A stretch of DNA of 64,000 nucleotides from Dasania marina DSM 21967 (GCF_000373485.1 NZ_KB891591.1:1-64000); one strand, 5' to 3'. Positions 46,553 to 62,928 are shown, numbered from the stretch's first letter. The notes: a model not told the origin generated them from the letters alone. Translations and numbers: made by a program.

Positions 46553-48385
46553 ATGACTACTAGCAATGCCATAATTTATTTAGACCCGGACAGCGAGCTT
46601 AATTTACAAAGCCAAATTCGACAAAAATTAGTCGAGGCTATTTCTATGGGCACCTTCCCCATAGACCGGCGTTTGCCTTCGTCGCGTAAACTGGCGGAGC
46701 AATTAGGCGTGGCACGCAATACCGTGGTATTGGTCTATCAGCAATTAATTGATGAAGAATATCTGGTCAGCCGTGAGCGCAGCGGTATTTATGTTAATGG
46801 CAAAGTCTTGCAGGGCCGAGTGGGTTTTGAAGGCCGCGCCCGCAAAACCATCAATATTAGCGCTGAATGGCAGCAGCGTTTAAAAACCAGTGTCAGTTCA
46901 GCGCCTGGCTTTTCTTGCCCGCCCAACTGGCAACAATATCCCTATCCTTTTATTGACGGTCAGTTTGATACCTCTTTATACCCGATTAAAGAATGGCGCG
47001 AGGCTTCGCGTTTGGCTTTAGGGGTGCGTGAAATTTATGAGTGGGCCGGTGAAAGCGGCGATGCTGACGACCCCATGTTGATAGAGCAAATCCGCACCAA
47101 AATATTGCCGCGCCGTGGCATACAGGCCGGCCCCGATGAAATATTAATTACCGTAGGCACGCAGCAGGCACTGTACTTGGCGGCCCAGCTGTTAGTCGAC
47201 AGCAGCAGCACGGTGGCGATAGAGGAGCCGGGTTACCCCGATATGCGGCAATTGCTAACCCAGCGCGGTGCCAGCTTAGTGCATCAGCCGGTAGATACCG
47301 ATGGCATGTTGGTTGATCAGCGCTTGGATGCTTGCCAATTAATCTATGTAACGCCCAGTCATCAAACCCCTACCGCCGTAACCATGTCTATGCAGCGCCG
47401 CACCCAGCTATTACAAAAAGCGCGCAGCCTAGACCAACTCATTATTGAAGATGATTATGAGTTTGAAAGTAATTACCTAGGTAATCCTCACCCAGCTCTG
47501 CGGGGCATAGATAAAGATAATCGTGTGGTCTATGCCTCCTGCTTATCAAAAGTGTTAGCGCCAGGAGTACGTCTAGGTTTTATGGTGGCGGCACCAGAAC
47601 TAATCGCTGAGGCGCGTAAATTACGCCGCTTAATGGTATTACATCCGCCCTTGAACAATCAGCGCACCGTGGCGTATTTTTTATCACTGGGTTACTACGA
47701 TACTTTTTTAATGCATCTGTATGCGATTTTTCAAAAACGCTGGATGGCCTTGCGTTATGCGGTTAATTATTACCTATTACACGATCTCACTATTACCCCT
47801 TCGCAGGGTGGCACCTCTTTTTGGATGACCTTACCCAGCGATTTAACCGTGCAGTACTTAGTGCAAGAGGCAGCCAAGCGCGGCATATTAATAGAGCCTA
47901 TGGATCACTACTATGCCACCGAGGATGTGCCCGAAAACAGCTTTCGCATGGGGGTGACCAGTATCCCCCACGATAAAATTCGCGACGGTGTGGTGAAGTT
48001 GCGTGAATTAATTCATGAGTTGCGCGCCAACACCATAGAAACCTTTACCACCGCCAAGGGTACGCAATATGTGGGTGAAGAATTACGCAAGCGGGTATCG
48101 GATACCACTATGCGCTGCCTAATTGCCTACGGTGACCCCTGTACTATAGAGCTGCATGCCGATGGCAGCATGACCGGCCGCGCAGGCTATGCTAATGAAG
48201 ATTGCGATACTGGCCGCTGGTGGGTGGAGGGCGATTATTGGTATAGGCAGTGGCAGCGCTGGGCTTGGGCCGAGATAGGGGTGTATCACGTTAAGCTAGA
48301 GCGCAATCATATAAAACTATTTGATGAGCAGGGCTACTTAATAGAAAACGCATTGCTTAAAAAAAGTAAAACCAGCAAAAAATAA
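46553..48385 (+). CDS. MocR-type GntR regulator with aminotransferase domain and extra C-terminal domain
   Basis: A 610-residue transcription regulator. Winged helix GntR domain at about 12-82 (LPSSRKLAEQLGVARNTVVLVYQQL), linker, then a fold-type I aminotransferase domain (about 120-490) with PLP lysine K333 in CLSKVLAPGVR and D301 in IEDDYEFE. Normal MocR proteins end near 490. Here about 110 residues follow, with a compact Trp/Cys-rich segment (505-600: GDPCTIELHADGS, GYANEDCDTGRWW, WRQW-like WYRQWQRW). That domain is unrecognised. MocR regulators sense PLP or amino compounds and usually control adjacent genes, here probably the amidase and receptor downstream. Confidence 0.88.
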   Translation: MTTSNAIIYLDPDSELNLQSQIRQKLVEAISMGTFPIDRRLPSSRKLAEQLGVARNTVVLVYQQLIDEEYLVSRERSGIYVNGKVLQGRVGFEGRARKTINISAEWQQRLKTSVSSAPGFSCPPNWQQYPYPFIDGQFDTSLYPIKEWREASRLALGVREIYEWAGESGDADDPMLIEQIRTKILPRRGIQAGPDEILITVGTQQALYLAAQLLVDSSSTVAIEEPGYPDMRQLLTQRGASLVHQPVDTDGMLVDQRLDACQLIYVTPSHQTPTAVTMSMQRRTQLLQKARSLDQLIIEDDYEFESNYLGNPHPALRGIDKDNRVVYASCLSKVLAPGVRLGFMVAAPELIAEARKLRRLMVLHPPLNNQRTVAYFLSLGYYDTFLMHLYAIFQKRWMALRYAVNYYLLHDLTITPSQGGTSFWMTLPSDLTVQYLVQEAAKRGILIEPMDHYYATEDVPENSFRMGVTSIPHDKIRDGVVKLRELIHELRANTIETFTTAKGTQYVGEELRKRVSDTTMRCLIAYGDPCTIELHADGSMTGRAGYANEDCDTGRWWVEGDYWYRQWQRWAWAEIGVYHVKLERNHIKLFDEQGYLIENALLKKSKTSKK

Positions 48386-48519
48386 CTGGCCTCATCAGGG
48401 GCTGACAACTGGCCCTATTCCCTACACCGTAAAATCATTACATTACACTCAATCAATGGCTAAGCCGAGCAATCAATTAACGGCTACAACAATAGTGCCA
48501 TGTGAACTAGGGGTTGGTA

Positions 48520-49377
48520 ATGAGTCACTTCTCCATAGCGGGATTACAACTAGAATTATCGAATCAAGATAATTTTAGTTTTATAGAACAAGAAATAACG
48601 CGGGTTAAAAACGTTTTCCCTTGGGTGGACATGATAGTGCTCAGTGAGTTGAGCACCTTTGGCACTAGCACCACACTGGCTCAGCCTATGCCGGGGCCCG
48701 CTGAACAGCGTTACTGTGAAATCGCCGCAAAAAATAATTTATGGTTAATACCGGGCAGTTTATTTGAGCGTGCTGATGACCAGGTTTACAACACCACCCC
48801 GGTCATTAATCCACAGGGCGAAGTGGTAACGCGTTATCGCAAAATGTTCCCTTTTTATCCTTATGAAAAAGGTGTGAGTGCTGGCGATGATTTTGTGGTG
48901 TTTGATGTGCCGGCGGTAGGCCGCTTCGGTGTTTCCATTTGCTACGATCAGTGGTTTCCAGAAATTTCTCGCAGCTTGGCGTGCATGGGGGCAGAGGTAA
49001 TTATTTGCCCTACCTTAACCGGCACCATAGATAGAGAGTTGGAATTATCCATAGCCAGAACCAATGCGGTGGTCAGCCAAAGTTATTTTTTTAATATTAA
49101 TGTGGCAGGCCGTTTAGGTAATGGCCGCTCTATAGTGGTGGGGCCGGATGGCCAAGTGCTACACCAAGCTGGCACGAGTAGCGAAATCATGCCTATAGAA
49201 ATAGATCTTAACCATGTGCGTAGAGTGCGTGAGCGCGGCGGTTTGGGGCTAGGGCAAACTTTAAAAAGCTTTAGGGATAGTCAGCTGCAATTCCCCGCTT
49301 ATCAGCAGGATGCGCGGCAGTCGGCCGCTTTGCAGTCACTAGGGCCGTTAAAGAAATTTGGCGAGGATGCGAGCTAA
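48520..49377 (+). CDS. Carbon-nitrogen hydrolase (nitrilase superfamily amidase)
   Basis: A 285-residue cytoplasmic amidase-type enzyme with the Glu-Lys-Cys triad: E43 in VLSELSTFG, K108 in YRKMFPFYPYEKG and C141 in VSICYDQWFPE. It hydrolyses a C-N bond, most likely an amide or carbamoyl group; substrate unassigned. The ATG at 48520 follows AGGGG; a TTG two codons earlier overlaps that site. It lies 134 bases after the MocR gene on the same strand, so it is a likely target of that regulator. Confidence 0.88.
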   Translation: MSHFSIAGLQLELSNQDNFSFIEQEITRVKNVFPWVDMIVLSELSTFGTSTTLAQPMPGPAEQRYCEIAAKNNLWLIPGSLFERADDQVYNTTPVINPQGEVVTRYRKMFPFYPYEKGVSAGDDFVVFDVPAVGRFGVSICYDQWFPEISRSLACMGAEVIICPTLTGTIDRELELSIARTNAVVSQSYFFNINVAGRLGNGRSIVVGPDGQVLHQAGTSSEIMPIEIDLNHVRRVRERGGLGLGQTLKSFRDSQLQFPAYQQDARQSAALQSLGPLKKFGEDAS

Positions 49378-49452
49378 ACGGTAAAACTGGCCTAATACAC
49401 AACAAACAACTGGTACTACGTGTACGTAATAAGCTCGGCTACCTTGATAGTT

Positions 49453-49500
49453 AAGGTTGAGGGTAGCTAGGGTTGAAGATAGATAAGGTTGAAGATAGAT
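49453..49500 (+). repeat. Three-copy 16-bp tandem repeat upstream of TonB-dependent receptor
   Basis: Units AAGGTTGAGGGTAGCT (49453-49468), AGGGTTGAAGATAGAT (49469-49484) and AAGGTTGAAGATAGAT (49485-49500). Units 2 and 3 differ at one base. The repeat ends 58 bases before the receptor start codon, so it may lie in its promoter or leader. MocR-type regulators bind direct repeats; a role as their target is conjecture. Confidence 0.6.
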
Positions 49501-49557
49501 AGGCTCAGTAGTCATCACAATCAATAAAAACTAAAAACAGGGTGTTGGAGAAACGTT

Positions 49558-52047
49558 ATGAGTAGTAAAAAACAATTCCAAAAAAACGCGCTAGCAAGCG
49601 CCATCGTAGCCGCTGCTGTTCTATCTGGCCACACCGCGCCTGTTTTGGCTGCCGGTGTTATGGAAGAGGTCATGGTCACAGCAACCGCCAGAAAACAATC
49701 GGTACAAGATATCCCTTATAATATTTCTGCGATGCAAGGGGCAGAATTAGCCGCGCAAAATATTAATAGTGAGGCGGATTTACTGCGATCCATGTCGGGC
49801 GTGTCGGTGGTTGATCGCGGTTATCGCAACTCGGGTACGGTTAATAGCATTATTATTCGTGGCTTAAATGTGGACAGCGGCGCCAATGGCGATATCTCGC
49901 TGAATGCCGTGCCTACGGTTTCCACCTATGTGGATAACACGCCGCTGTATGCCAATTTTGTATTAAAAGATATAGAGCGAGTGGAAGTGTTGCGCGGCCC
50001 GCAGGGCACCTTGTATGGCTCCGGCGCCTTAGGTGGCACCGTACGTTATATTAGTAATAAACCTAATCCGGAAGCATTTGAAGCGCAGGTAAATGGTGAT
50101 TTTAGCCAAACCGATGGCTCTGATGGCAATAATATTAATGTCGACTTTATGTTGAATGTGCCCTTAAGTGAAAAGGCGGCGATTAGGGCGTCGGTAGGAA
50201 AAATAGATAATGATGGCGTAGTGGATTATATCAACGCCTATCAATTAAACGAATTTGGTGAGCCCTTGGTAGCGGTAGGCGATAACTGTGTGTCGCCGCG
50301 AACAGCTACCGATGCGCAGGTACTGAACAATGGCGCCTGCTATAAAAACGAAAAAGATGCCGATGATGTAGACATAGATTATGCCAAAGTGGCCTTGTCG
50401 TTTGAGCCTAGCGATAATCTACGCTTTTTACTCAGCTACCAAACCCAGGAAGATGAAATTGGTGCTAGGCGAGCAGTGACCTCCGGTAATAATGGCCAAC
50501 CAGTAGGCTCGGCGTTGCGCTTTGATTACGGCGAGTATGATAGTGGCCAAGTATTGCTAGAACCTTCTTCCCGCGAAGTGGACTTACTCAGCTTAGATAT
50601 AGAAGTCGATTTTGGTTTTGCGACACTCACCTCTAATACCTCCAGTTATGATCATGAAGGTAAAGCCGACAGTGATAATGGCGGCCTATGGGTTAGCGGT
50701 GGCCGCGACTGGATTACTAACTTTGGTTATGGCGGCTGGCCACGGCCCGCACAAAGAGCGGAGCGTGGTTATGAAGATGAAACCACCATACAAGAGTTTC
50801 GTTTAGTATCTAATGATAGCGACAGTGCCTTTGATTGGTTGGCAGGTGTGTTTTATTTAGACCAGGATTTAACCGTTTTCCAAAACAGCTGGAATCCAGG
50901 TATGAATGAGTTTGCCCAATCCTGTGTTACCAGCGGTTCCGATGTTTGCCCTAGCTTTTGGCCATCAACTTTTTATCCCGGCGCAACCTTAACCGAACGC
51001 GATTTAGAATATCGTCGTGATGTCAGCTTTGAAGAGTTAGCCGTATACGGTGAGCTTACCTACCATATTACCGACAGGCTGCATATTACCGGTGGCTTAC
51101 GCTGGTTTGATAATGAATCGGTGAATGACACTATCATGGGCTTCCCGCTGGTAGAGGGGTGGGTTTCTTCTGAGGTTCCCCAGGCTAAGCAAAAAGAAGA
51201 TGACGTACTAAAAAAATTCAATATCGCCTATGACCTCAACGATAACACCATGATTTATGGTACCTACTCCGAAGGCTTTAGGCATGGTGGCGCCAATGCC
51301 ATACCCAGCCTAGACAATGGCGATAACTTTGGTGAGCCTAATTCAGATGCCATTAATTTTTATGAAAAAGACAGCGTAGAAAATTACGAGTTGGGTATTA
51401 AAGGTCAGACCGATAGCCTTAACTACACCGTCTCGGTTTTTTATGTGGACTGGCAAGACCCTCAGCTTAATGCCACCTCGTCCTGGTACGGTTTTTACAT
51501 GGCGGTCAACGGTGAGTCAGCCGCAACCCAAGGTATAGAAATAGAATTGGAAGGTTACCTAACCGAGACTTTGCATTACCGCCTAGGTTACACCTATGTT
51601 AATGCTGAACTCACCGACGACTTTATCAATCCACAAACCGATGCGGTAATCGCTGAAGATGGCGCGACGTTACCCGGCACACCCGAGAGTGTATTAAGTG
51701 TGAGTTTGGATAATACCTGGGGTTTAACCGAGGGTTTAGATTTAGTGGCTAGGGTAAATGCCTATTATCAATCGGAGTCAGAAAACTTTATCGATGATAA
51801 GTCGGCATTGGGAGCAACCCATGATGGCTTTATGTTGTGGAATGCTTCAGCCACCGTAGTTGCCGATAATTGGACGCTCAGCCTATACGGTAAAAACCTA
51901 GGTAATGAAGAAGGGGTGACCGGCTCATTCCCCGAGGCTTATTTTGGTGCCGATACCGGCGTGTTTGAAAATTGGTACGGCAATAGCAATAGGCAAATGA
52001 TTTCTCAGCCGCGTACTATAGGCGTATCAGCGTCGTATAAATTTTAA
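49558..52047 (+). CDS. TonB-dependent receptor (first of three)
   Basis: An 829-residue outer-membrane receptor for active uptake. Signal peptide about 1-32 (AAAVLSGHTAPVLAA), TonB-box-like MEEVMVTATAR, plug domain to about 175 with VEVLRGPQGTLYGSGALGGTVRYISNKP, then a 22-strand-type barrel ending in the aromatic terminus SASYKF. There is no STN domain, so it does not signal through FecR. Its ligand is unknown; this subfamily in marine gammaproteobacteria often imports organic compounds rather than iron chelates. GGAG precedes the ATG. A terminator follows. Confidence 0.93.
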   Translation: MSSKKQFQKNALASAIVAAAVLSGHTAPVLAAGVMEEVMVTATARKQSVQDIPYNISAMQGAELAAQNINSEADLLRSMSGVSVVDRGYRNSGTVNSIIIRGLNVDSGANGDISLNAVPTVSTYVDNTPLYANFVLKDIERVEVLRGPQGTLYGSGALGGTVRYISNKPNPEAFEAQVNGDFSQTDGSDGNNINVDFMLNVPLSEKAAIRASVGKIDNDGVVDYINAYQLNEFGEPLVAVGDNCVSPRTATDAQVLNNGACYKNEKDADDVDIDYAKVALSFEPSDNLRFLLSYQTQEDEIGARRAVTSGNNGQPVGSALRFDYGEYDSGQVLLEPSSREVDLLSLDIEVDFGFATLTSNTSSYDHEGKADSDNGGLWVSGGRDWITNFGYGGWPRPAQRAERGYEDETTIQEFRLVSNDSDSAFDWLAGVFYLDQDLTVFQNSWNPGMNEFAQSCVTSGSDVCPSFWPSTFYPGATLTERDLEYRRDVSFEELAVYGELTYHITDRLHITGGLRWFDNESVNDTIMGFPLVEGWVSSEVPQAKQKEDDVLKKFNIAYDLNDNTMIYGTYSEGFRHGGANAIPSLDNGDNFGEPNSDAINFYEKDSVENYELGIKGQTDSLNYTVSVFYVDWQDPQLNATSSWYGFYMAVNGESAATQGIEIELEGYLTETLHYRLGYTYVNAELTDDFINPQTDAVIAEDGATLPGTPESVLSVSLDNTWGLTEGLDLVARVNAYYQSESENFIDDKSALGATHDGFMLWNASATVVADNWTLSLYGKNLGNEEGVTGSFPEAYFGADTGVFENWYGNSNRQMISQPRTIGVSASYKF

Positions 52048-52078
52048 ACGGCTAAAATATTAAGTTAGTTATCTAACC

Positions 52079-52109
52079 AGGCTATTAAGTAAGTAGCCCG
52101 GTTTTTTTG
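52079..52109 (+). terminator. Intrinsic terminator after first TonB-dependent receptor
   Basis: GGCTA (52080-52084) pairs with TAGCC (52094-52098), followed by CGG and seven Ts. Short stem, but well placed about 30 bases after the receptor stop. Confidence 0.65.
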
Positions 52110-52163
52110 CTTTAGCCTAAGCGCTGATGCATGATTAATGCGATGTATCAACGGCGATAGGGT

Positions 52164-53186
52164 ATGACAGCTTTGCGATTTAAAGAACTACAGTTACAGG
52201 GTGATGCGGCAGCGAGAGGCTACCAGCACGGTAGCGCGTTAAAGGCCGAGATAGCGCAGGCGCTGGCTTATTATAAGGCGCTATTTAATTTGCCCAGCTC
52301 AGCCTTACTGGCGCAGGTTAGGCATTATCGCCAGGCGATTATGGATTTTAAGCCTGCCTATATGGATGAGATAGCCGCCATTGCCCTAGGTGCAGAGCAG
52401 AGTGTCGATGACATAGTGATGCTCAATGCGCGCTCGGAAATACTGAATAACCTCTCCGTTGCGGAATGCACGACGGTATATAACCAAGCTACTGGTCTGC
52501 TAGCGCAAAACTGGGATTGGTCTAAAACCTTAGAGCCACTGGTTGTGGTTTTGCACATAGAACAAGAGCAAGGCCCGCGCATCACCACCCTGACGGAGCC
52601 AGGCATATTGGCCAAGGTAGGTATGAATAGTGCGGGGCTGGCGGTTTCCCTCAATATCTTAAAAAGCTCGGCACGCTTACAGGGCTTACCGGTACATATT
52701 TTTCTCAGGGCGGTGTTGGAGTGCACATCGTTAGACCAAGTGAGGGCCTTGTTAGCCACCGTGGCGGTAGGTAAGGCCAGCCATGTCTTAGTGGCCGATG
52801 GCCACGGTGATTTTTTGAGTATAGAGTTTGCCGGCGATAAACATTATTTGCTCAATAGTGATCATCACGGCCTGTTAATACACACTAATCATTATCTGGC
52901 CGAGGCAGCGCTTAATGAACAGGCCGCTTTCCCCAGTACCTACGAGCGCTATCAACGCGCCCATGAAATATTATCCTACGACCGTTCCGATAAGGGCGTG
53001 CAATCCGTCTTGTTAGATCAAAGCCAAGGCTTGAACTCTATTTGCCGGGCTTATAGCCCTTCGGCTTTGGCCAATTTTGGCGAGGTGGGCACGGTGTTTT
53101 CGGTGCTAATGAAACCTGCTAAAAAAACCATTAGCATAAGGCCGGGCTGCAAAACCGATACGCCTTTTTATCAATTACAGCTTTAG
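52164..53186 (+). CDS. C45 family Ntn-hydrolase (acyl-CoA:6-APA acyltransferase-like)
   Basis: A 340-residue protein of the peptidase C45 family, which includes the fungal penicillin acyltransferase. These are self-processing Ntn hydrolases whose new N-terminal Cys cleaves or transfers acyl-amide groups. The probable nucleophile is C102 in VAECTTVYN, followed by LLAQNWDW, the family's conserved block, and GMNSAGLAVSLN. The residue before the Cys is Glu where the fungal enzyme has Gly, so processing may differ. No signal peptide is seen. It sits between a receptor and an MFS transporter, hinting that it acts on an imported N-acyl compound. Confidence 0.82.
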   Translation: MTALRFKELQLQGDAAARGYQHGSALKAEIAQALAYYKALFNLPSSALLAQVRHYRQAIMDFKPAYMDEIAAIALGAEQSVDDIVMLNARSEILNNLSVAECTTVYNQATGLLAQNWDWSKTLEPLVVVLHIEQEQGPRITTLTEPGILAKVGMNSAGLAVSLNILKSSARLQGLPVHIFLRAVLECTSLDQVRALLATVAVGKASHVLVADGHGDFLSIEFAGDKHYLLNSDHHGLLIHTNHYLAEAALNEQAAFPSTYERYQRAHEILSYDRSDKGVQSVLLDQSQGLNSICRAYSPSALANFGEVGTVFSVLMKPAKKTISIRPGCKTDTPFYQLQL

Positions 53187-53314
53187 CGCATGTGGCCTTA
53201 TAGTCAGCCGCCAACTGGTACTATGTTTTAGCTAGTCGCTTGTTATGGTGTAGGCCTATGCTACTAGTAGCTGAGTAGTCCTTTTAGATAATAACAAACA
53301 ATAAAAGAGTCACT

Positions 53315-54514
53315 ATGAGTCATTCTGCCGTGCAAACGAGTAAAGTCCCGTTGTTAAAGCGCCTACCTATAGCCTCGGCCAATGGCGAAATAGCGCGGGT
53401 ATTATTATCGTTTTTGGCAACGGCGGGGCTGTTTTATGTCAACATCATGCCGGCCTTAATCGATGGTTTAATTGATGGCTTGGGCTTTAGCAATAGAGAT
53501 GCGGGATTTGTCGGCTCTGCCAATGTCTATGGCGCGGCTGTGGGTGCGTTAACGGCAGTGTTTATTGTTAAACGTATCAATTGGAAAAAAACGGCGCTAT
53601 TACTGCTGCTGGGTTTGTTAGTAACGGATTTGTTTTCTATCTATTTGACTACGGTTAATAGCTTGGTGCTTACCCGTTTTTTTCATGGCTGCATCGGTGG
53701 CATGTTAGTGGGCATTGCCTTTGCGGTGATTGCGCGCACTAGTCAGGCCGATCGTACCTTTGGTTATTTGCTAACCGTGCAGTTTGGTTTGGGCGGGGCA
53801 GGCTTAATGTTTCTACCTCCCTTGGTGCCTGAGTACGGCACGGCCGCTTTGTTTATTGCCTTAATGGCCTTTAGTGCTGTAACGCTGTGTATGCTGCCTT
53901 TTTTAGCGGACTATAAAATTATAGAACCGTTGCCAGCAGATAAGGCGATAGCCGTAAAAAAAATTAATTACCCCTTACTCGCTTTAGCGTTGTTGGCGAC
54001 CTTCTTATTTCAGGCGGCCAATATGGGCGTGTATGCCTACGTCATCGGTTTGGGTAAGGCCGCTGGCCAAGATATGTCATTTATTAGTTCTACTTTAGGC
54101 TTCGCCGCTTGGATAGCGATAGCCGGCTCGGTATTAGTGATAGTGATGTCTACCCGCTTTGGTCGCCTGTGGCCTATATTAATTGCCACGTTGCTAACCA
54201 TAGTGGGTACTTGGTTGTTTCATTACAGTGATAGTAAAAGCTATTACTGGGTAGCCAATGTTGGCGTAGGTATTACCTGGGCGTTTGTGATTTCATACTT
54301 ACTAGGCATGTGTGCAGAGTTTGACAGTAGCGGACAAATGGCGGCGCTGGGTGGCTTTGCCTCTAAAATGGGTTTGGCCTCAGGGCCGTTAACTGCGGCA
54401 TTAATTGTTGGTGACAATAATTATGGTCTGTTGGTTAACGTGGCGCTGGTTGCTTTGTTGCTGTGCATGGCTGCGGTAATCTTGCCGACCTTGGCCTTGG
54501 ATAAAGCCAAGTGA
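53315..54514 (+). CDS. Major facilitator superfamily transporter
   Basis: A 399-residue inner-membrane protein with twelve predicted helices in two six-helix halves separated by a charged loop (about 205-220, EPLPADKAIAVKKINYP). Family features include GFSNRDAGFVGSANVYGAAVGA and the motif between helices 2 and 3 (VKRINWKK). No substrate could be assigned. It follows the C45 gene by 128 bases on the same strand, so co-expression is likely. It may carry the product of the C45 enzyme or the compound taken up by the receptors. Confidence 0.88.
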   Translation: MSHSAVQTSKVPLLKRLPIASANGEIARVLLSFLATAGLFYVNIMPALIDGLIDGLGFSNRDAGFVGSANVYGAAVGALTAVFIVKRINWKKTALLLLLGLLVTDLFSIYLTTVNSLVLTRFFHGCIGGMLVGIAFAVIARTSQADRTFGYLLTVQFGLGGAGLMFLPPLVPEYGTAALFIALMAFSAVTLCMLPFLADYKIIEPLPADKAIAVKKINYPLLALALLATFLFQAANMGVYAYVIGLGKAAGQDMSFISSTLGFAAWIAIAGSVLVIVMSTRFGRLWPILIATLLTIVGTWLFHYSDSKSYYWVANVGVGITWAFVISYLLGMCAEFDSSGQMAALGGFASKMGLASGPLTAALIVGDNNYGLLVNVALVALLLCMAAVILPTLALDKAK

Positions 54515-54516
54515 TG

Positions 54517-55527
54517 TTAGTTTTTAGGAATTAATAGTATGTGTTGCTCTCTATTAATGTGAGCAATATCAAAAGATTGCTCCAGTATAAAAAGCAGTGA
54601 TCCCGCATCATTGATACGAAACACACCGCTGACCAGTATGTCGTTTAACTGGGCGCTGCCTATCACTATGGGCTTGGCGGAATATTTATTATATTCCTCA
54701 ATGACATGGCTTAGGGCGTCCTCTTCAAACAGAATTTTTCCCTCGGTAATGGCCAGAATCTTGTCTAAGTTAGCTGCATGTATTTCAGAGTTGGCGCCGT
54801 TAGCCCAGTAAATAAGTTCGTCACCTTTATTTAATAGGGGGAGATCGTCCACTTGAGTAAGCTTTTTAGTGGGCTCAATTTGTATAGTACCCTCTAATAC
54901 CGAAACCGTAGCTTGTTCGTTGCGAAAGGCAATATTAAAACTAGTGCCCACAGCGCGAGTAAGGCGGTTGCCGGTGGTCACTTCAAAAGGCCGGGTTTTA
55001 TTATGGGCGACTTTAAACAGGGCCTCGCCTTGTTTTAACGCTATGCTGCGACGGCTGTTGCTATAGTCAACGCTGATTAGGGTGTTGCTGTTGAGCAATA
55101 CCGTTGAGCCATCCTCTAGGGTGATGCTGCGCTGCTCACCCATACGAGTCTGGTAATGCTCAGCCGAAAAAACAGTGAACAACAGGCTGATAGCAACGGC
55201 CATCATCGCTACACTTGCGGCTTTAGCCCAGTGGCTAAGATACCAAGCTTGGCCAGTTTTTGCTTGCTCGTTGTCTAAGGGATACTGCGCCAGTAACTGA
55301 TCAAGTTCCGGGGCGCCTTTGAGTTCGCCCAATAACTCCCAAACCTGTTCACAGCCTTCTAGCTTTTGCTCATGGTCGGGATCGGCCGCTAACCACGCGC
55401 AAAACTGCTCGCTATCCTGAGGGTTGAGCGAGTCGGCTTGCAGTTTAGCAAACCATTTTGCATCCTCTGAGATGTTGGCGTTATCGGGCTTGTTGTGCGG
55501 CGTTTTATTCATGGATTTATCTTTCAT
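54517..55527 (-). CDS. fecR: FecR-family anti-sigma factor / signal transducer
   Basis: A 336-residue inner-membrane protein that passes a signal from an STN-bearing receptor to its sigma factor. N-terminal DUF4880 domain (WFAKLQADSLNPQDSEQFCAWLAADPDH), one membrane helix (102-121), FecR domain (about 125-225, GEQRSITLEDGSTVLLNSNT) and a C-terminal STN-like domain (about 262-336, GKILFEEDALSHVIEEYN). Its ATG overlaps the sigma stop (ATGA), so the pair is coupled. It is convergent with the MFS gene, whose stop lies 2 bases away. Confidence 0.92.
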   Translation of the reverse strand: MKDKSMNKTPHNKPDNANISEDAKWFAKLQADSLNPQDSEQFCAWLAADPDHEQKLEGCEQVWELLGELKGAPELDQLLAQYPLDNEQAKTGQAWYLSHWAKAASVAMMAVAISLLFTVFSAEHYQTRMGEQRSITLEDGSTVLLNSNTLISVDYSNSRRSIALKQGEALFKVAHNKTRPFEVTTGNRLTRAVGTSFNIAFRNEQATVSVLEGTIQIEPTKKLTQVDDLPLLNKGDELIYWANGANSEIHAANLDKILAITEGKILFEEDALSHVIEEYNKYSAKPIVIGSAQLNDILVSGVFRINDAGSLLFILEQSFDIAHINREQHILLIPKN

Positions 55528-56120
55528 AGTAGCCCCTGTAGTTTTTCACGGCAGAGGGTCATGGCTATACTCATTTGTCGTTCAACGGTGCGGGTGGTGA
55601 TATTCAGTTTGTCGGCAATTTCAGGATAACTCATATCGTGAAAGCGATGCAGTATAAAAATGTGCCTGCCCCGTGGGCTGAGCTGGTTTAAAATAATTTT
55701 CAATTGCGTCATCACTTGCTGCGACTGTACCTGGCGATCGGGGCTGGGGTTGTTGGATACTAGCTCCTCATCGTCTATGGATACATGTTGCTGTAGTTGC
55801 TGGCGGGCATCTTTTCGGGTTTTATCAATAACTAAGTTGGTCGCTATTTTAAACAGATAGGCCTTGGCGCTGCTCTCTTGCTGCTCTAGGTTTTCTCTTT
55901 GCAGCACCCGTATATAGGTTTCTTGCATTAATTCTTGGGCATCATCTTTGTTACGTAACAGGCGATAAATATGCCTGTGTAGCGAATCCTTATAGGACTG
56001 AAACAGCCGCTCAACATACTGCCGCTGCCCTGCACGCATGGCGTCAGAGCGAGTGTTGGCTATTGTCGCTGGCTGCGTATCGCTACGGTCGCTAACCAGC
56101 CTGATATGCGTTTTAGGCAT
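55524..56120 (-). CDS. fecI: ECF sigma factor, FecI type
   Basis: A 198-residue extracytoplasmic-function sigma factor with a region 2 (YLFKIATNLVIDKTRKDARQ with RNKDDAQELMQETYIRVLQ before it) and a region 4 helix-turn-helix (LSPRGRHIFILHRFHDMSYPEIADKLNITTRTVERQMS). FecI-type sigmas are activated by FecR when a TonB-dependent receptor is occupied. Ribosome binding site GAGG precedes the ATG at 56120. The receptor with an STN domain is divergent at 56351, the classic cell-surface signalling layout. Confidence 0.92.
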   Translation of the reverse strand: MPKTHIRLVSDRSDTQPATIANTRSDAMRAGQRQYVERLFQSYKDSLHRHIYRLLRNKDDAQELMQETYIRVLQRENLEQQESSAKAYLFKIATNLVIDKTRKDARQQLQQHVSIDDEELVSNNPSPDRQVQSQQVMTQLKIILNQLSPRGRHIFILHRFHDMSYPEIADKLNITTRTVERQMSIAMTLCREKLQGLL

Positions 56121-56244
56121 AAAACCTCTAAGCCTAAGCGTGATAGCTAAGGCGTTTGTGGCGTGTCGGCGCCAATGGCGAGTGTATCTATAGGGGCAAA
56201 AAATATTGTAGACTCTTACTAACTATACGCTTTAGGATCGCTTA

Positions 56245-56280
56245 CCCCGACATTATTTATCAAAATAATTTACTGCGGGG
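56245..56280. promoter_or_regulatory. Inverted repeat in the sigma/receptor divergent spacer
   Basis: ATTATTT (56252-56258) pairs with AAATAAT (56263-56269) around a 4-base loop, and is flanked by CCCCG (56245-56249) and CGGGG (56276-56280) that also pair. It lies 70 bases before the receptor start. It could be an operator or a leader hairpin. A FecI-type promoter could not be recognised. Confidence 0.4.
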
Positions 56281-56350
56281 AATATGGATATTTAGCCATT
56301 ATGTTAGTCGGCAGCTGATAAGCTAGCCCTATAAAAATAAGAATGTAGCA

Positions 56351-58936
56351 ATGCCATTATTCACCCGTATTTTTCGTACCAAGGCCCAAGCCATGTTGCC
56401 CACGGCACTGCTATGGGCACTGCTGGCTGCCACTGCGGCACAGGCTGGTAATGAAGGCAGGGTTACTTTTCATATCAGCCAGCAGCCGTTGGCGGCGGCG
56501 TTACAGCAATATGCCAAGCAAGCCGATATGCAACTGCTGTTCCCTTCAAGGCTGGTGGCCGGCATAACAAGCAGGGCGTTATTTGGCGAGCACAGCCGGC
56601 AGCAGGGCTTAGTACTGCTGTTAGAGTGCCAAGGTCTGGAAGCTGTGTTTGGGCCTTTGGCGGCAGTGGCCATTAAATCTTCAGAGACTAACCTAGGTTG
56701 TGCTGCTGATACTAATGCCTTAACGGCAGCCGATAGCCGTGGCCAGCCAGCGCTAGACAGCCTAGAAGAAATTTATGTAACCGCGCAAAAGCGTTTTCAA
56801 AGTGCGCAAAACGTGAGCATGGCCATTACCGTGTTTCAGGCCGCTGATGTTAAAAACCTAGGCCTGCAAAAAGCGGGTGATATCGCACCGCAGTCATCGG
56901 GTGTAACCATTAAAAACGTATTGAATAAAACCTTTCCCGTTTACACCGTGCGAGGGGTGGGCAGCACCGCGTTCACCTCCAATGGCTCTGCGCCTATAGG
57001 GGTGTATATGGATGAGCTATTTATGCCCTCCATCTCCATGTTAAATTTTTCGCTGTTTGATATAGAGCGGGTGGAAGTATTAAAAGGGCCGCAGGGCACT
57101 TTATTCGGCCGCAATACCACCGGTGGCGCGGTGCGTTATATCAGCCAACGGCCGCAGCAAGAATTTAACGGCTCGGCGTCGCTGCTGTTGGCTGACCACG
57201 ATGTGAGGGTATTAGACGCCGCAGTGGGCGGTGGCCTGAGTGATAATTTGTCGGCGCGGCTGGCAGTTAAATCGGAGTATCAGGGTGAAGGCTATGTGAC
57301 TAATAAAATTCAAGGCAGTAGCCAAGATGTAGGCCGCACCAACAGCACCGCTATGCGCTTGGGCTTGCGCTGGCAAGCGGACGATCTGGATATTTATTGG
57401 AACTTACACGGCGGTAAAGAAGACTCGCAAAACGAACCCTGGGTAGGCATAGGTAAACGCAGTCCTGCTGTTTCGCAAACCGCGGCAGAGCTGCCCGGTG
57501 GCAAAAGTTTTAAACAACCTTGCGCAGACTTATCCAGTACTAAGCTCAGTTATTTTATCGATAACTGCGTCAATGTGTTGGGCTATCAAGACCCCTATAG
57601 CGATCCACGCGTAGGCGAATACAGTCAAGAGCCCATACTACAAGGCGAAAGTTTGGGCAGTGTGTTAGATATTGAAAAAGAGTTTGCATGGCTGCGCTTA
57701 ACCGCTATTACCGCCGCGGAATATAGTGATAGCCAAGTAGAAGAAGATTTTGATGGTGGCCCTTTTCGCATAGGGGATTCATCCTATAGCAACACCGCTA
57801 ATGTGCTCAGCCAAGAGCTGCGCATATCCTCTATCAACCCTGCATTCGGCAGCACCAATTGGTTGGCGGGTTTTATTTATTACCAAGATGATATGCAGGT
57901 GCAGGATATATATGGTTATAGAGATAGAGTGAACCACGATGTGCTGGTGGAGTTTGATCAAAAAACCACAAGCTGGGCGTTATTTTCTCACGCCGAAACC
58001 CAGATCAATTATCACTGGAGCGTGCTGGCGGGTTTGCGCTATAGCTATGATGAAAGCCGCTTTAATGGTGGCACCTCTATTATTAATAAAGATGCTGATT
58101 ACAGCGGTGACGAAACGTTTTTTAGCGAGCAGCCCTTATTAAATAAAGATCAGACCCACTCCCGTGAAGTCACCGGCAAGCTGGTTTTACAATATAGCCC
58201 GCAAGATCACTTACTGTTTTATGGCAGCGTTAATCGAGGCTATAAAGCCGGCGTTTGGAGTGGTTTTTGGTCTATACAGGAAGGCGAGCATATCTCTACC
58301 GAGCCTGAACATATATTGGCCTATGAGTTGGGTGTTAAGTCGGCACTGGCGAATAATACCTTGCAACTTAATGCCGCGTTATATTATTACGACTACACCG
58401 ATATGCAATTATTTTTTGAATTTTCCGATGGCCGTTACACCTCATTTAATGCTGGCGAAGGTGAAATGAAAGGGGCTGAGCTTGAGTGGTGGTGGCGCGC
58501 CAGCGAGTACTTAGATATCAAAGGTGGCGTGGCGTATAACCGTTCAAAAATTAATGGCGAGGTAGGCACAAGCAAGTTTTCTGATACCGTGCCGCCCAAT
58601 TCCCCAGAATATTCAGCGCATAGTTTAGTGCGCTATAGCCATCCTATCAGTGCGCAGCTCAATGGTTTTGTGCAGGCTGATGTGGCTTATCAGGATGGGG
58701 TGTATTTTTCACTGGATAATCAACGGGCAGTGAGTGAAGACGCGTATATGCTCAGTAATGTCAGCATGGGTATAGCGGCGTTGGATGATAGCTGGGATGC
58801 TGCCATCTGGGTAAAAAATATTAGCGACAAGCAATACTATAGCGAGATATTAAGCTCTAATAGTGCAGGCACCGTATCTGCGCAGCTGGGCCAAGCTAGA
58901 ACCTTTGGTGTAAGCCTAAGTTACCGCTGGCATTAG
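56351..58936 (+). CDS. TonB-dependent receptor with STN signalling domain (second of three)
   Basis: An 861-residue outer-membrane receptor. Signal peptide 1-32 (AATAAQA), then an STN domain (about 38-108, VTFHISQQPLAAALQQYAKQADMQLLF) that contacts FecR, TonB box LEEIYVTAQK (138-147), plug with VEVLKGPQGTLFGRNTTGGAVRYIS and a barrel ending in Trp-His. Occupancy should activate the divergent FecI sigma via FecR. It shares long identical blocks with the next receptor (NVLNKT, TVRGVG, FDGGPFRIGD). Ligand unknown. Confidence 0.94.
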   Translation: MPLFTRIFRTKAQAMLPTALLWALLAATAAQAGNEGRVTFHISQQPLAAALQQYAKQADMQLLFPSRLVAGITSRALFGEHSRQQGLVLLLECQGLEAVFGPLAAVAIKSSETNLGCAADTNALTAADSRGQPALDSLEEIYVTAQKRFQSAQNVSMAITVFQAADVKNLGLQKAGDIAPQSSGVTIKNVLNKTFPVYTVRGVGSTAFTSNGSAPIGVYMDELFMPSISMLNFSLFDIERVEVLKGPQGTLFGRNTTGGAVRYISQRPQQEFNGSASLLLADHDVRVLDAAVGGGLSDNLSARLAVKSEYQGEGYVTNKIQGSSQDVGRTNSTAMRLGLRWQADDLDIYWNLHGGKEDSQNEPWVGIGKRSPAVSQTAAELPGGKSFKQPCADLSSTKLSYFIDNCVNVLGYQDPYSDPRVGEYSQEPILQGESLGSVLDIEKEFAWLRLTAITAAEYSDSQVEEDFDGGPFRIGDSSYSNTANVLSQELRISSINPAFGSTNWLAGFIYYQDDMQVQDIYGYRDRVNHDVLVEFDQKTTSWALFSHAETQINYHWSVLAGLRYSYDESRFNGGTSIINKDADYSGDETFFSEQPLLNKDQTHSREVTGKLVLQYSPQDHLLFYGSVNRGYKAGVWSGFWSIQEGEHISTEPEHILAYELGVKSALANNTLQLNAALYYYDYTDMQLFFEFSDGRYTSFNAGEGEMKGAELEWWWRASEYLDIKGGVAYNRSKINGEVGTSKFSDTVPPNSPEYSAHSLVRYSHPISAQLNGFVQADVAYQDGVYFSLDNQRAVSEDAYMLSNVSMGIAALDDSWDAAIWVKNISDKQYYSEILSSNSAGTVSAQLGQARTFGVSLSYRWH

Positions 58937-59147
58937 CTTTTTCCTCTCTTTATTCCCCCTCCTTTATATCTGCGCCTGTTACTTTTGTTGATGGCGGATA
59001 TTTTATCGCAATAAAATTACAATAAAAATGTCGGGCTCTTGCGATTGCTGTCGTATCAGTAGTAAGGGTGGCAAGGCAGTGTCTAGGTAAGCTGCTTTAT
59101 GGCCAAAGGTTAATTTACTTACTAATACAATAGGTGGGGAGCTTGGC

Positions 59148-61442
59148 ATGACATTCGTCGCTAATGCACAACAATATAAAAAACTATCAACTGTTAAAAC
59201 CTTATTAATGGGTGGTGCCGTCAGCATGCTGGCAGCCTCAGTACAGGCCGCAGGCTTGGAAGAGGTGATGGTTACCGCGCAGAAAAAATCACAAAGCGCG
59301 CAAGATGTAGGTATAGCCATTACCGCCTTTGGTGGTGAAGCTATGAAAAGCATGGGTATGACCCAACCTATAGATATGGCGCCGCAAACACCCGGCCTTA
59401 CCATTAAAAATGTATTAAACAAGGCCGCGCCCATTTTTACCGTGCGCGGTGTTGGTAATACCGCATTTACCTCTAATAGCGTGGCGCCGGTAGGTGTTTA
59501 TGTTGATGAATTGTTTTTGCCTTCCAGCTCTATGCTGACTTTTTCTTTGTTCGATATGGAGCGGGTAGAAGTGTTAAAAGGCCCGCAGGGCACCTTGTTT
59601 GGCCGTAACACCACGGCCGGTGCAGTGGCGTTTATTAGTGAAAAACCTCGTCAAGAATTTAGCGCCAATGTCAGCACCACACTGGGTGACTATGGTTTGC
59701 GTAATGTTGAAGGCGCGATAGGTGGTGGCCTTACCGAGACCTTGTCGGGCCGCCTAGCGGTTAAATGGGATTATCAAGACGAAGGTTTTTTTACCAATAA
59801 AATAAATGGTCGCAACGATGATATAGGCAGCACCGATACTCTGGCCTTGCGTGGCGCTTTACGTTGGGAATTTGACAATACCGATATCAACTGGAATGTG
59901 CATGGTGGCCGTGATCGTTCCGAGAATGAACCTTGGGTGGCCATAGGCCGTCGCGATCCCAACACCGTTACCGGTAATAAACCTGAGCTGCCCGGCCCCA
60001 ATGGTGGCGACGTATTTACCAATAGTTGTGCCGACCCTGCTACCACTAATATCAAATACTTTATTAAAAACTGCTCTAACAACTTGGGTTATCGCGACCC
60101 CTATGAAGATTTAAGAGTGGGCGAATTTAGCCAAGTACCCAGCTTAGAAAGTGACAGCTTAGGCACCTTGTTAAATATCACCGTTGATATGGGTGCCAGC
60201 ACGCTGACCTCTATCAGTGCCTATGAAACCAAAGATAGTTATATAGAAGAAGATTTTGACGGCGGCCCTTTCCGCGTAGGTGATACTTCTTATGCTAATG
60301 ATATCAGCGTGTTTAGTCAGGAAGTACGATTAAGTAGCAACGAGCCGGCCTTTGATAAAATGGACTGGATAGTGGGCGGCATGGTCTATCAAGACTCTAT
60401 GGATGTAGCGGATACCTACGGTTACACCGATAGAGTTAACCACGATGTGCTGGTGGAGTTTACCCAAGATACTACCAGTTGGGCCTTGTTTGCTCACACC
60501 GAAACTCAGCTTGACGAAGAGTGGAATTTTATTGCGGCCTTGCGTTATACCGAAGATAAAATCGCCTTTGACGGCGGCACCTATATGGTTAATCGCGAGC
60601 CAGATTTTACCGGCGATGCCACCTTTTTTAGCAGTGCCCCCATATTAGAAGATGATGAAATTGAAACCACTGAAGTTACCGGTAAGCTGGGCCTTGAATA
60701 CGCGCCCAACGATGACTTGTTGATATATGCCAGCTATAGCCGCGGTTATAAGGCCGGTGTGTGGAATGGTTTTTGGGCCACGGTTGCCGGTGATCACGTC
60801 GCTACTGACCCTGAATATATCGATGCCTATGAGTTAGGTTTTAAATCTACTTTATTGGATAACAGTTTGCAGTTTAACGGTTCGGTTTATTTATATGACT
60901 ACACCGATATGCAATTATTTGCCGACTTACCCGATGGACGCTTTGCGATTTTTAATGCTGGTTCAGCGGATATCATGGGTGCCGAGGCCGATGTCTGGTG
61001 GCGTCCTCTAGACGGTTTGGATATTAAAGCCGGCGTTGCCTATAACGATGCCAAGGTATCGGCAAAGGTGGGGCTGTTAGATTTTGACGATGCCACGCCG
61101 CCGAATACACCTGAATTAACTTACAACGCCTTGGTACGTTATGAGTGGAACGTGAGCGATAGTTTGCTGGCCAGCGTGCAAACAGACTTTGCTTATCAGG
61201 ATGGGGTGTTTTTCTCATTGGATAATCTCAAGGCCACCAGCCAAGAGGATTATACCTTAGTGAACTTACGTGCAGGTGTGGCATCGGCTGATGATGTTTG
61301 GTCGGCCTATGTGTGGGTTAAAAACGCCACCGATAAAGATTATTTTACTGAAAATCTTAGCTCGGGTAGTGCCGGTGCTTTATCTGGTCAGGTTGGTCCT
61401 CCACGTACCGTAGGGATAACCTTAAGCTATAACTGGGAGTAG
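59148..61442 (+). CDS. TonB-dependent receptor lacking STN (third of three), paralogue of the second
   Basis: A 764-residue outer-membrane receptor. Signal peptide about 1-36 (SMLAASVQAAG), immediately followed by the TonB box LEEVMVTAQK, so there is no STN signalling domain. Plug VEVLKGPQGTLFGRNTTAGAVAFIS; barrel end LSYNWE. It is closely similar to the 56351-58936 receptor over plug and barrel, including the block EEDFDGGPFRVGD, GYTDRVNHDVLVEF and FLPDGRF-like regions. It was probably formed by tandem duplication and loss or gain of STN. GGGGAG precedes the ATG; a 211-base spacer suggests its own promoter. Confidence 0.94.
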   Translation: MTFVANAQQYKKLSTVKTLLMGGAVSMLAASVQAAGLEEVMVTAQKKSQSAQDVGIAITAFGGEAMKSMGMTQPIDMAPQTPGLTIKNVLNKAAPIFTVRGVGNTAFTSNSVAPVGVYVDELFLPSSSMLTFSLFDMERVEVLKGPQGTLFGRNTTAGAVAFISEKPRQEFSANVSTTLGDYGLRNVEGAIGGGLTETLSGRLAVKWDYQDEGFFTNKINGRNDDIGSTDTLALRGALRWEFDNTDINWNVHGGRDRSENEPWVAIGRRDPNTVTGNKPELPGPNGGDVFTNSCADPATTNIKYFIKNCSNNLGYRDPYEDLRVGEFSQVPSLESDSLGTLLNITVDMGASTLTSISAYETKDSYIEEDFDGGPFRVGDTSYANDISVFSQEVRLSSNEPAFDKMDWIVGGMVYQDSMDVADTYGYTDRVNHDVLVEFTQDTTSWALFAHTETQLDEEWNFIAALRYTEDKIAFDGGTYMVNREPDFTGDATFFSSAPILEDDEIETTEVTGKLGLEYAPNDDLLIYASYSRGYKAGVWNGFWATVAGDHVATDPEYIDAYELGFKSTLLDNSLQFNGSVYLYDYTDMQLFADLPDGRFAIFNAGSADIMGAEADVWWRPLDGLDIKAGVAYNDAKVSAKVGLLDFDDATPPNTPELTYNALVRYEWNVSDSLLASVQTDFAYQDGVFFSLDNLKATSQEDYTLVNLRAGVASADDVWSAYVWVKNATDKDYFTENLSSGSAGALSGQVGPPRTVGITLSYNWE

Positions 61443-61466
61443 CGCTGACGATTGCACACCCTGTTT

Positions 61467-61496
61467 GGAGGTCTGTTGTTGCGGCCTCCTTTTTTT
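61467..61496 (+). terminator. Intrinsic terminator after third TonB-dependent receptor
   Basis: GGAGG (61467-61471) pairs with CCTCC (61485-61489), plus one wobble pair, then a run of seven Ts. It separates the receptor from the permease gene. Confidence 0.75.
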
Positions 61497-61554
61497 ATCT
61501 TCGAATATTATCGGTTAGTATGGCCGCGTAGCATGTAATCACAAGAGAGATGAT

Positions 61555-62928
61555 ATGAGCGAAACACAACAAGGCAACCTAGAGCGAGTACTGTCGCAAA
61601 AAGAAGTACTGGCTTTAGCGTTTGGTGCCATGGTGGGCTGGAGTTGGGTGGCCCTAGCGGGTAGTTGGGTGCTGGCAGCCGGTACCGGCGGCGCCATAGC
61701 CGCGTTTGTTTTAGGTGGCGGCCTGATGGTGTTAATAGGCCTAACTTATGCCGAGTTGGCGGCAGCCATGCCTTTTGTGGGTGGCGAGCATGTGTATAGC
61801 CATAGAGCCTTGGGCGGGACTGCCGCGTTTGTCTGTACCTGGGCCATTATTTTAGCCTATGTCAGTGTCGCCGCTTTTGAAGCGGTGGCTCTACCCACCG
61901 TGATGGAGGAAGTTATCCCCGGTTTAAAAACCATAGAATTGTGGACGGTTGCGGGTTATCAGGTTTATCTCAGCTGGGCGTTGATAGGTATGGTAGCTGC
62001 GGTTTTTGTTACCTGGATTAATGTGCGCGGAGTAAAGGCCGCCGCTTTATTACAAACCGTGGTGACGGTGCTATTGCTAGTTGCTGGGGTGATGTTTGTA
62101 ACGGGCGCCAGCTTTAATGGCTCGGCCGATAATATGCCGGTGTTGTTTAAAGACGGCATTAGCGGCTTTGTGCTGGTGTTAGTGGCGGTGCCGTTTATGT
62201 TTGTGGGTTTTGATGTGATACCGCAAATGGCTGAAGAAATTAATTTACCGCATAAAAAAATCGGCCAGTTAATTATCGTGTCTGTGCTGATGGCGGTGCT
62301 GTGGTATAGCTTAATTAGTTTTGGCGTGGGCATGTCCTTGTCACCGGCGGAATTAAACAGCAGCCGCTTGGCCACGGCCGATGCCGCAGGTTCGGTATGG
62401 GGCTCGGGCTTTGCTAGGGATATGGTTATCTTGGCGGGCATAGCCGGTATTATTACCAGTTGGAATGCGTTTTTTATAGGCGGTGCACGGGCGATTTATG
62501 TGATGGCCAAAGCAGGGCAGCTACCAGCCGCTTTAGGCAAACTGCATCCTAAATACAACACCCCGCACAATGCCATTATATTAATTGGCGTGCTCTGCGT
62601 TATTGCGCCATTGTTTGGTCGCAAAATGCTGGTGTGGTTAGTGGACGCCGGTAGTTTTAGCGTGGTGATAGCCTACGGTTTGGTGGCGTTATCCTTTGTG
62701 GTGCTGCGCATACGCGAGCCAGAAATGCCCAGGCCTTATAAAGTTGTAGGTGGTGTGAGCGTGGGCATATTAGCCTTTGTCGCCTCGTTGGGGCTGGGAA
62801 CGTTGTATTTGCCGGGCAGTGTGGCGGCCTTAGTATGGCCGGAATGGATGATAGTGCTTGGCTGGGCCGTGTTGGGTGCGCTGTGCTTTTTATTACGCAA
62901 TATCCATAGGCGTGGCGCGCACGCGTAG
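61555..62928 (+). CDS. APC family amino acid/polyamine permease
   Basis: A 457-residue inner-membrane transporter with about twelve helices. Helix 1 carries the APC-type unwound segment (ALAFGAMVGWSWVALAGSW), and the helix 6 region (FVGFDVIPQMAEEINLP) and GGARAIYVMAKAGQLPAALGKLHPKYNTPHNA are family hallmarks. It moves an amino acid, amine or related cation; substrate not assigned. It follows the receptors on the same strand but behind a terminator. The ATG has GAGAG upstream. It is a good candidate for carrying the product of periplasmic or cytoplasmic amide cleavage. Confidence 0.9.
   Translation: MSETQQGNLERVLSQKEVLALAFGAMVGWSWVALAGSWVLAAGTGGAIAAFVLGGGLMVLIGLTYAELAAAMPFVGGEHVYSHRALGGTAAFVCTWAIILAYVSVAAFEAVALPTVMEEVIPGLKTIELWTVAGYQVYLSWALIGMVAAVFVTWINVRGVKAAALLQTVVTVLLLVAGVMFVTGASFNGSADNMPVLFKDGISGFVLVLVAVPFMFVGFDVIPQMAEEINLPHKKIGQLIIVSVLMAVLWYSLISFGVGMSLSPAELNSSRLATADAAGSVWGSGFARDMVILAGIAGIITSWNAFFIGGARAIYVMAKAGQLPAALGKLHPKYNTPHNAIILIGVLCVIAPLFGRKMLVWLVDAGSFSVVIAYGLVALSFVVLRIREPEMPRPYKVVGGVSVGILAFVASLGLGTLYLPGSVAALVWPEWMIVLGWAVLGALCFLLRNIHRRGAHA

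Follow-up and report, generated by a model that had tools for sequence, protein, structure and literature searches.

Which compound is served by a locus that combines amide-acting enzymes with TonB-dependent receptors, and which of its genes belong together, is the question raised by a 16-kb stretch (positions 46553-62928) in the genome of Dasania marina DSM 21967 (GCF_000373485.1, NZ_KB891591.1:1-64000; the 64,000 nucleotides that were analysed are referred to as the window). An earlier note on this DNA had listed a MocR-type regulator, a nitrilase-type amidase (nit), a TonB-dependent receptor (TBDR1), a C45-family N-terminal nucleophile (Ntn) hydrolase, a major facilitator superfamily (MFS) transporter, the pair FecI/FecR, two further receptors (TBDR2 and TBDR3) and an APC-family permease, and open reading frames (ORFs) and family profile scans recover all of these genes in the order given. 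We find that the core of the stretch (46553-54514) appears to be a copy of a bacterial gene set that had so far escaped notice and that serves the uptake and cleavage of short amide-linked chains. The proposal that the locus captures and breaks down an amide compound is thereby retained in the form of a conserved and apparently co-regulated amide module, and it can be refined to an amide that is probably made of an omega-amino acid like gamma-aminobutyric acid (GABA). Overlooked in the earlier note were an extra C-terminal domain of the MocR protein, operator-like repeats, and the absence of FecI, FecR, TBDR2 and TBDR3 from a sister species.

The C-terminal domain of the MocR protein served as the marker in a search for the module in 390 genomes of the order and in a further class sample and phylum sample. 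It was found with good scores in 19 of the 390 genomes (G192, with a weak match that contains stop codons, was excluded from the count), in one more Gammaproteobacterium of the class sample and in other genomes of the phylum sample; one of these, G812, belongs to another class and has the full module set. The nitrilase gene stands beside the marker in nearly all copies, and the genes for TBDR1 and the MFS transporter in most; the combination MocR-nitrilase-TBDR1, with or without the MFS gene, thus recurs in most other genomes having this MocR, with homologues in the module loci that are 50-85% (nitrilase), 41-90% (TBDR1) and 41-87% (MFS) identical. G231 and G960 are exceptions, as their regulator has neither nitrilase nor TBDR1 beside it, and so is G033 with its apparently broken nitrilase gene. 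The neighbourhood comparison that had been suggested as a check therefore has a divided outcome: MocR, nitrilase, TBDR1 and MFS transporter stay together, but the FecI/FecR block does not stay with them. We hold with high confidence that the module exists as a conserved, co-regulated gene set, and literature searches for its gene combination returned nothing relevant. In G960 (L131, L123) the same MocR was seen with genes for GabT, GabD, a TRAP transporter and a Nyl4A-type hydrolase, and with no nitrilase or TonB receptor nearby.

The genes of the module share a putative operator. It is a direct repeat of two boxes, AACTGGmCTmA followed by AACTGGnmCTAy, 23 bp apart, which precedes nit, TBDR1 and the MFS gene in the window and in many relatives. 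The core of the motif, CTGGNMCTA, was seen by eye in intergenic stretches of the window and then counted in the 250 bp before the genes of the module loci, where it occurs upstream of nit in 12/21 cases, of TBDR1 in 11/20, of the MFS gene in 7/19 and of genes for Nyl4A-type hydrolases (see below) in 7/22, as compared to 3/167 for the other genes (p 7e-18); one of these three is the broken nitrilase of G033. Of the 37 sites, 30 have another TGG box at a distance of exactly 23 bp on their upstream side. The motif was found neither before the MocR gene (0/20) nor before a gene for a TPR-sulfotransferase that accompanies many copies (0/17), FecI/FecR, C45 or APC (0/2). Over the whole window a strict count of the core does not exceed the chance level (5 found, 3.6 expected); the signal is the position before module genes, the recurrence across loci and the 23-bp spacing. 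Regulators of the MocR family commonly bind direct repeats, and we infer that the window-type MocR binds this one. The box of TauR, a member of the same family, is CTGGACYTAA, likewise arranged as direct repeats (PMC5320631), and the module repeat is close to it.

What varies between the copies is the hydrolase. The C45 enzyme was seen in this slot in three module loci only, namely in the window, in the sister species Dasania sp. GY-MA-18 (L001) and in G018 (L040). Other copies have there a secreted serine hydrolase from one Nyl4A-type family or, in genus g80 (G184, G113), a shorter NylB-like hydrolase. The best PDB matches of a 392-aa hydrolase in L074 include NylB, the 6-aminohexanoate-dimer hydrolase. 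The genome of D. marina carries a second module (contig C13; L037 385-12969) with two Nyl4A-type hydrolases and no C45. One of these, of 842 aa, has a signal peptide (by eye), a choice-of-anchor D domain (NF012200) at residues 170-259, a beta-lactamase-fold domain (PF00144) at 554-716, and the residues S555, K558 and Y656, which are invariant in 11 homologues. Nyl4Apx of Pseudoxanthomonas TN-N1, one of the only two enzymes for the degradation of polyamide 4 (poly-GABA, the plastic nylon-4) whose genes are published, has 841 aa, choice-of-anchor D at 158-261, a beta-lactamase-fold domain and S554, K557 and Y655 (PMC13269358); variants of the module-linked hydrolase without the middle domain resemble the other enzyme, Nyl4Apa of Pseudoalteromonas Y-5.

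No Nyl4A-type gene is present inside the window module. The nearest one (G000:C17:86165-88732; L140 3165-5732; 855 aa) lies on the same contig, 22 kb to the right of the window end and unlinked to the module, and is preceded by three tandem boxes of the putative operator at -154, -131 and -113. Its orthologue in the sister species, where the only module found is of the window type, has one such box. All window-type modules without a Nyl4A-type gene in the cluster (the window, G001, G018 and G051) are accompanied by a full-length one elsewhere in the genome. Genes of this type occur in 20 of the 390 genomes and in 15 of the 19 with the MocR marker (Fisher p 1.3e-19 by genome; 9/11 and p 6e-11 by genus), where the p values are inflated by shared ancestry and assume that both searches covered the same 390 genomes, in agreement with handles and totals. 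Within genus g3, marker and Nyl4A-type gene are both present in G005 and G008 and both absent in G003, G004, G006, G007 and G009. The link between the module and the Nyl4A-type hydrolases can be stated with high confidence. On the Streptomyces plasmids L132 and L133 a Nyl4A-type hydrolase was seen beside a carbon-nitrogen hydrolase, an APC permease and a LysR regulator.

The regulator itself is unusual. Like GabR, TauR and PdxR, it combines a winged helix-turn-helix domain with a fold-type I aminotransferase domain, in which the pyridoxal phosphate-binding lysine is kept in an alignment to GabR, but it is longer than usual, as some 120 residues without a Pfam match follow the aminotransferase domain. 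The AlphaFold2 model of this part (mean confidence, pLDDT, 91) is a predicted beta-barrel similar to the lipocalin-family structures 4gzv and 4iab by VIA (Z 9.9; for 4gzv rmsd 2.2 over 87 aligned residues), but it had no Foldseek match at E<=0.001. It may constitute a putative ligand-binding domain, i.e. a candidate sensor of the regulator. Plasmid matches of the MocR protein, among those listed, stop before or early in this domain, and small secreted proteins related to it were noticed in other genomes (L112, L116, L117, L118). Sensing of GABA in the manner of GabR was considered and rejected, because the two arginines that bind the carboxylate of GABA in GabR, Arg207 and Arg430 (PMC6917764), are not conserved.

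A clue to the product comes from the neighbouring genes in relatives. Genes of the GabD (succinate-semialdehyde dehydrogenase, SSADH) type and of the GabT or omega-aminotransferase type lie near the regulator in G812, G1080, G960, G005, G173 and G269, and in G812 the MFS gene is followed after 43 bp by the start of the SSADH gene. It is on account of these genes and of the linked Nyl4A-type hydrolases that we regard an amide of GABA or of a similar omega-amino acid as the probable substrate, a GABA-type substrate being held with moderate confidence. In the pathway that we propose, the secreted Nyl4A-type serine amidase, encoded elsewhere in the genome in the case of the window copy, would free short oligo-amides, which TBDR1 would take across the outer membrane and the MFS transporter would move inwards; the cytosolic nitrilase-family amidase, and in the window copy also the C45 enzyme, would then cut them to the free amino acid, which GabT/GabD-type enzymes could channel into succinate. 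Shared control would be exerted by the MocR protein with its lipocalin-like domain, through binding to the repeat before nit, TBDR1, the MFS gene and the hydrolase genes. The direction of transport and the division of labour between nitrilase and C45 are presumed, and the role given to C45 in the window copy is held with low to moderate confidence. On balance we favour the view that D. marina has two copies of a regulon under MocR control, of which the core is one, and that the regulon serves the use of GABA, or of a similar omega-amino acid, in the form of amide-linked chains.

Several observations weigh against this view. The functions of all module proteins are predicted from sequence and not from biochemistry. 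The GabT/GabD-type genes are near only six of some 24 module copies and not in the window. The likeness between the C13 hydrolase and Nyl4Apx is one of length, domain positions and residue numbering, Nyl4Apx (LC905122) and Nyl4Apa having been compared by description and not by alignment. The operator consensus was derived by eye from the window and then counted in relatives that are not independent. The TPR-sulfotransferase, found in 17 module copies (e.g. L038 13074-14669) and absent from the Dasania modules in both genomes, has no role in the proposed scheme; literature searches for a pairing of TonB receptor and TPR-sulfotransferase, and for lasso loci, yielded no matching system. The positions of the two GABA-binding arginines are taken by D and H in the window MocR, so that the regulator may sense another form of the substrate. 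Finally, polyamide 4 is man-made and we know of no natural poly-GABA; as a consequence, the true substrate may differ from poly-GABA.

Two other readings deserve attention. The first is that the window copy has diverged, the C45 enzyme replacing the secreted hydrolase, and acts on a different and smaller amide than the C13 copy. The retention of two modules with such different hydrolases, the identity of only 47% between their TBDR1 proteins and the rarity of C45 in this slot speak for divergence, but the operator and gene order of the window copy agree with those of other copies, and an operator-marked nyl4A is at hand on the same contig, as it is in the sister, so that we consider this reading unlikely, if far from negligible. 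According to the second, the substrate of the module is some other natural compound with an amide linkage (an N-acyl amine, a lactam or something peptide-like), and the Nyl4A enzymes attack polyamide 4 as a side activity. The C45 and serine beta-lactamase-fold hydrolases are indeed broad amide- and lactam-acting families, the module is old and common to classes of the phylum whereas polyamide 4 is synthetic, and related nitrilases occur beside C45, an ATP-grasp (biotin-carboxylase-like) protein and an Orn/Lys/Arg-type decarboxylase in L043 (9989-16406) and L044 (1152-7532). However, GABA oligomers are what the two characterised Nyl4A enzymes set free (2-4 units for Nyl4Apx and 2-3 for Nyl4Apa), Nyl4Apa lacks beta-lactamase and 6-aminohexanoate-dimer activity (PMC13269358), and GABA-catabolic genes are near the module in six genomes, which makes this second reading rather improbable.

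The regulon for GABA-like chains can be placed among known systems. The published description of the Nyl4A enzymes contains neither the term 'TonB' nor 'gene cluster' (PMC13269358), and the module adds to these enzymes a regulator, a receptor, a transporter, a nitrilase and an operator, although the window copy has no Nyl4A gene of its own. The degradation of nylon oligomers by NylA, NylB and NylC is likewise a stepwise hydrolysis of omega-amino acid amides, but the intracellular enzymes of the module are of other families (nitrilase, C45), and a TonB receptor and MocR control are added. In TonB loci of the polysaccharide-utilisation type, one regulator likewise governs a secreted depolymerase together with a TonB receptor, a transporter of the inner membrane and hydrolases of the cytosol; the chemistry of the module is that of the amide rather than the glycosidic bond, and neither SusD nor glycoside hydrolases are present in its core. 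What sets the MocR regulator apart from GabR, TauR and PdxR is its additional C-terminal domain, which is predicted to be lipocalin-like and may bind a ligand. Polyamide 4 is one of the few plastics that are degradable in the sea (PMC13269358), and module relatives with enzymes of this type could help to explain its breakdown there. The analysis assigns enzymes of the Nyl4A type to a regulon for which an operator, an importer, a transporter and intracellular enzymes can be predicted. Each gene of the pathway is thereby open to testing, and one may ask for which natural polyamide the pathway evolved. As a tentative answer, somewhat short of a favoured one, we suggest that marine and other Proteobacteria possess a dedicated MocR regulon for a natural GABA-like polyamide or oligo-amide, that polyamide 4 is degraded in the sea as a by-product of it, and that the three-domain MocR may read the substrate through its lipocalin-like domain.

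The remaining question is how the FecI/FecR genes relate to the core. In the sister the order is HemH, ECH, MocR, nitrilase, TBDR1, C45, MFS, APC and TetR, with proteins that are 80-94% identical; FecI, FecR, TBDR2 and TBDR3 are absent from this locus and MFS and APC adjoin. The DNA alignment breaks off at about 54534, just past the stop codon of the MFS gene, and starts again at about 61474, some 80 bp before APC, which implies that about 6.9 kb was gained in the window genome or lost in the sister; gain is favoured because the block was found in no other module copy examined. The best match to TBDR3 in the sister is only 42% identical and located elsewhere, no repeats marking the ends of the block were recognised, and no module operator site precedes its genes. 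Core and block are thus two separate units. Given these gene orders and operator counts, a single 16-kb operon was rejected, and it is very improbable that the whole stretch, for all that its genes adjoin in this genome, is one surface-signalling locus in which FecI/FecR switches on all receptors and enzymes, as the claim of one locus would have it. By its genes alone the block resembles FecI/FecR/FecA, with an adjacent extracytoplasmic function (ECF) sigma factor, an anti-sigma factor and a receptor whose residues 17-266 can be aligned to the N-terminal FecA portion that comprises the signalling region (NF041676); it differs in being separable from the module and in its extra paralogous receptor without that region. 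The likeness to lasso-peptide isopeptidase loci that had been drawn is not supported, as there is, in agreement with the note itself, no isopeptidase among the ten genes scanned (no separate search for a lasso precursor was made).

The features of the stretch are collected in the table.

Table. Genes and other features of the 46553-62928 stretch, in window coordinates
Feature	Position	Strand	Basis or remark
MocR-type regulator	46553..48385	+	Pfam GntR and Aminotran_1_2; NCBIfam PdxR 345.7 bits (cut-off 320)
Extra MocR C-terminal domain, predicted lipocalin-like beta-barrel	48017..48382	+	AlphaFold2 model
Two-box repeat before nit	48386..48417	+	CTGGCCTCA at 48386, CTGGCCCTA at 48409, 23 bp apart
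Nitrilase-superfamily (carbon-nitrogen) hydrolase, nit	48514..49377	+	PF00795
Two-box repeat before TBDR1	49387..49418	+	CTGGCCTAA at 49387, CTGGTACTA at 49410, 23 bp apart
TBDR1, module TonB-dependent receptor	49558..52047	+	PF00593 and PF07715
Stem-loop and T-run between TBDR1 and C45, possible terminator or attenuator	52080..52108	+	scan, weak
C45-family Ntn hydrolase	52164..53186	+	NF040521 233.6 bits (cut-off 85); PF03417
Two-box repeat before MFS	53192..53223	+	GTGGCCTTA at 53192, CTGGTACTA at 53215, 23 bp apart
MFS transporter of module	53315..54514	+	PF07690
FecR-type anti-sigma factor	54517..55527	-	PF04773, PF16220
Block absent from sister: FecR(-), FecI(-), TBDR2, TBDR3	54535..61473 (ends approximate)		DNA alignment and gene order
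FecI-type ECF sigma factor	55524..56120	-	Sigma70_r2/r4_2
TBDR2, receptor with N-terminal signalling region	56351..58936	+	FecA profile NF041676
TBDR3, TBDR2 paralogue without signalling region	59148..61442	+	56% identity to TBDR2
APC-family amino acid permease	61555..62928	+	PF13520; 89% identical to, and adjoining MFS in, the sister (L001)

The nitrilase, whose likely start by comparison with homologues is the ATG at 48520, belongs to the nitrilase superfamily by its CN_hydrolase domain and keeps the Glu-Lys-Cys catalytic residues in the alignment. The C45 protein matches the AAT / C45 proenzyme profile and PDB entry 2x1d (acyl-coenzyme A:6-aminopenicillanic acid acyltransferase type; E 1.5e-41), with its autocatalytic Cys kept in the alignment. 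By eye, a signal peptide is evident on TBDR1 and none on the nitrilase or C45. The stem-loop at 52080 is a weak candidate because 29 such sites occur in the region as compared to 18.7 in shuffles. Elsewhere in the window, an ORF resembling an IS256-type transposase was noticed by eye at 22187-23395.

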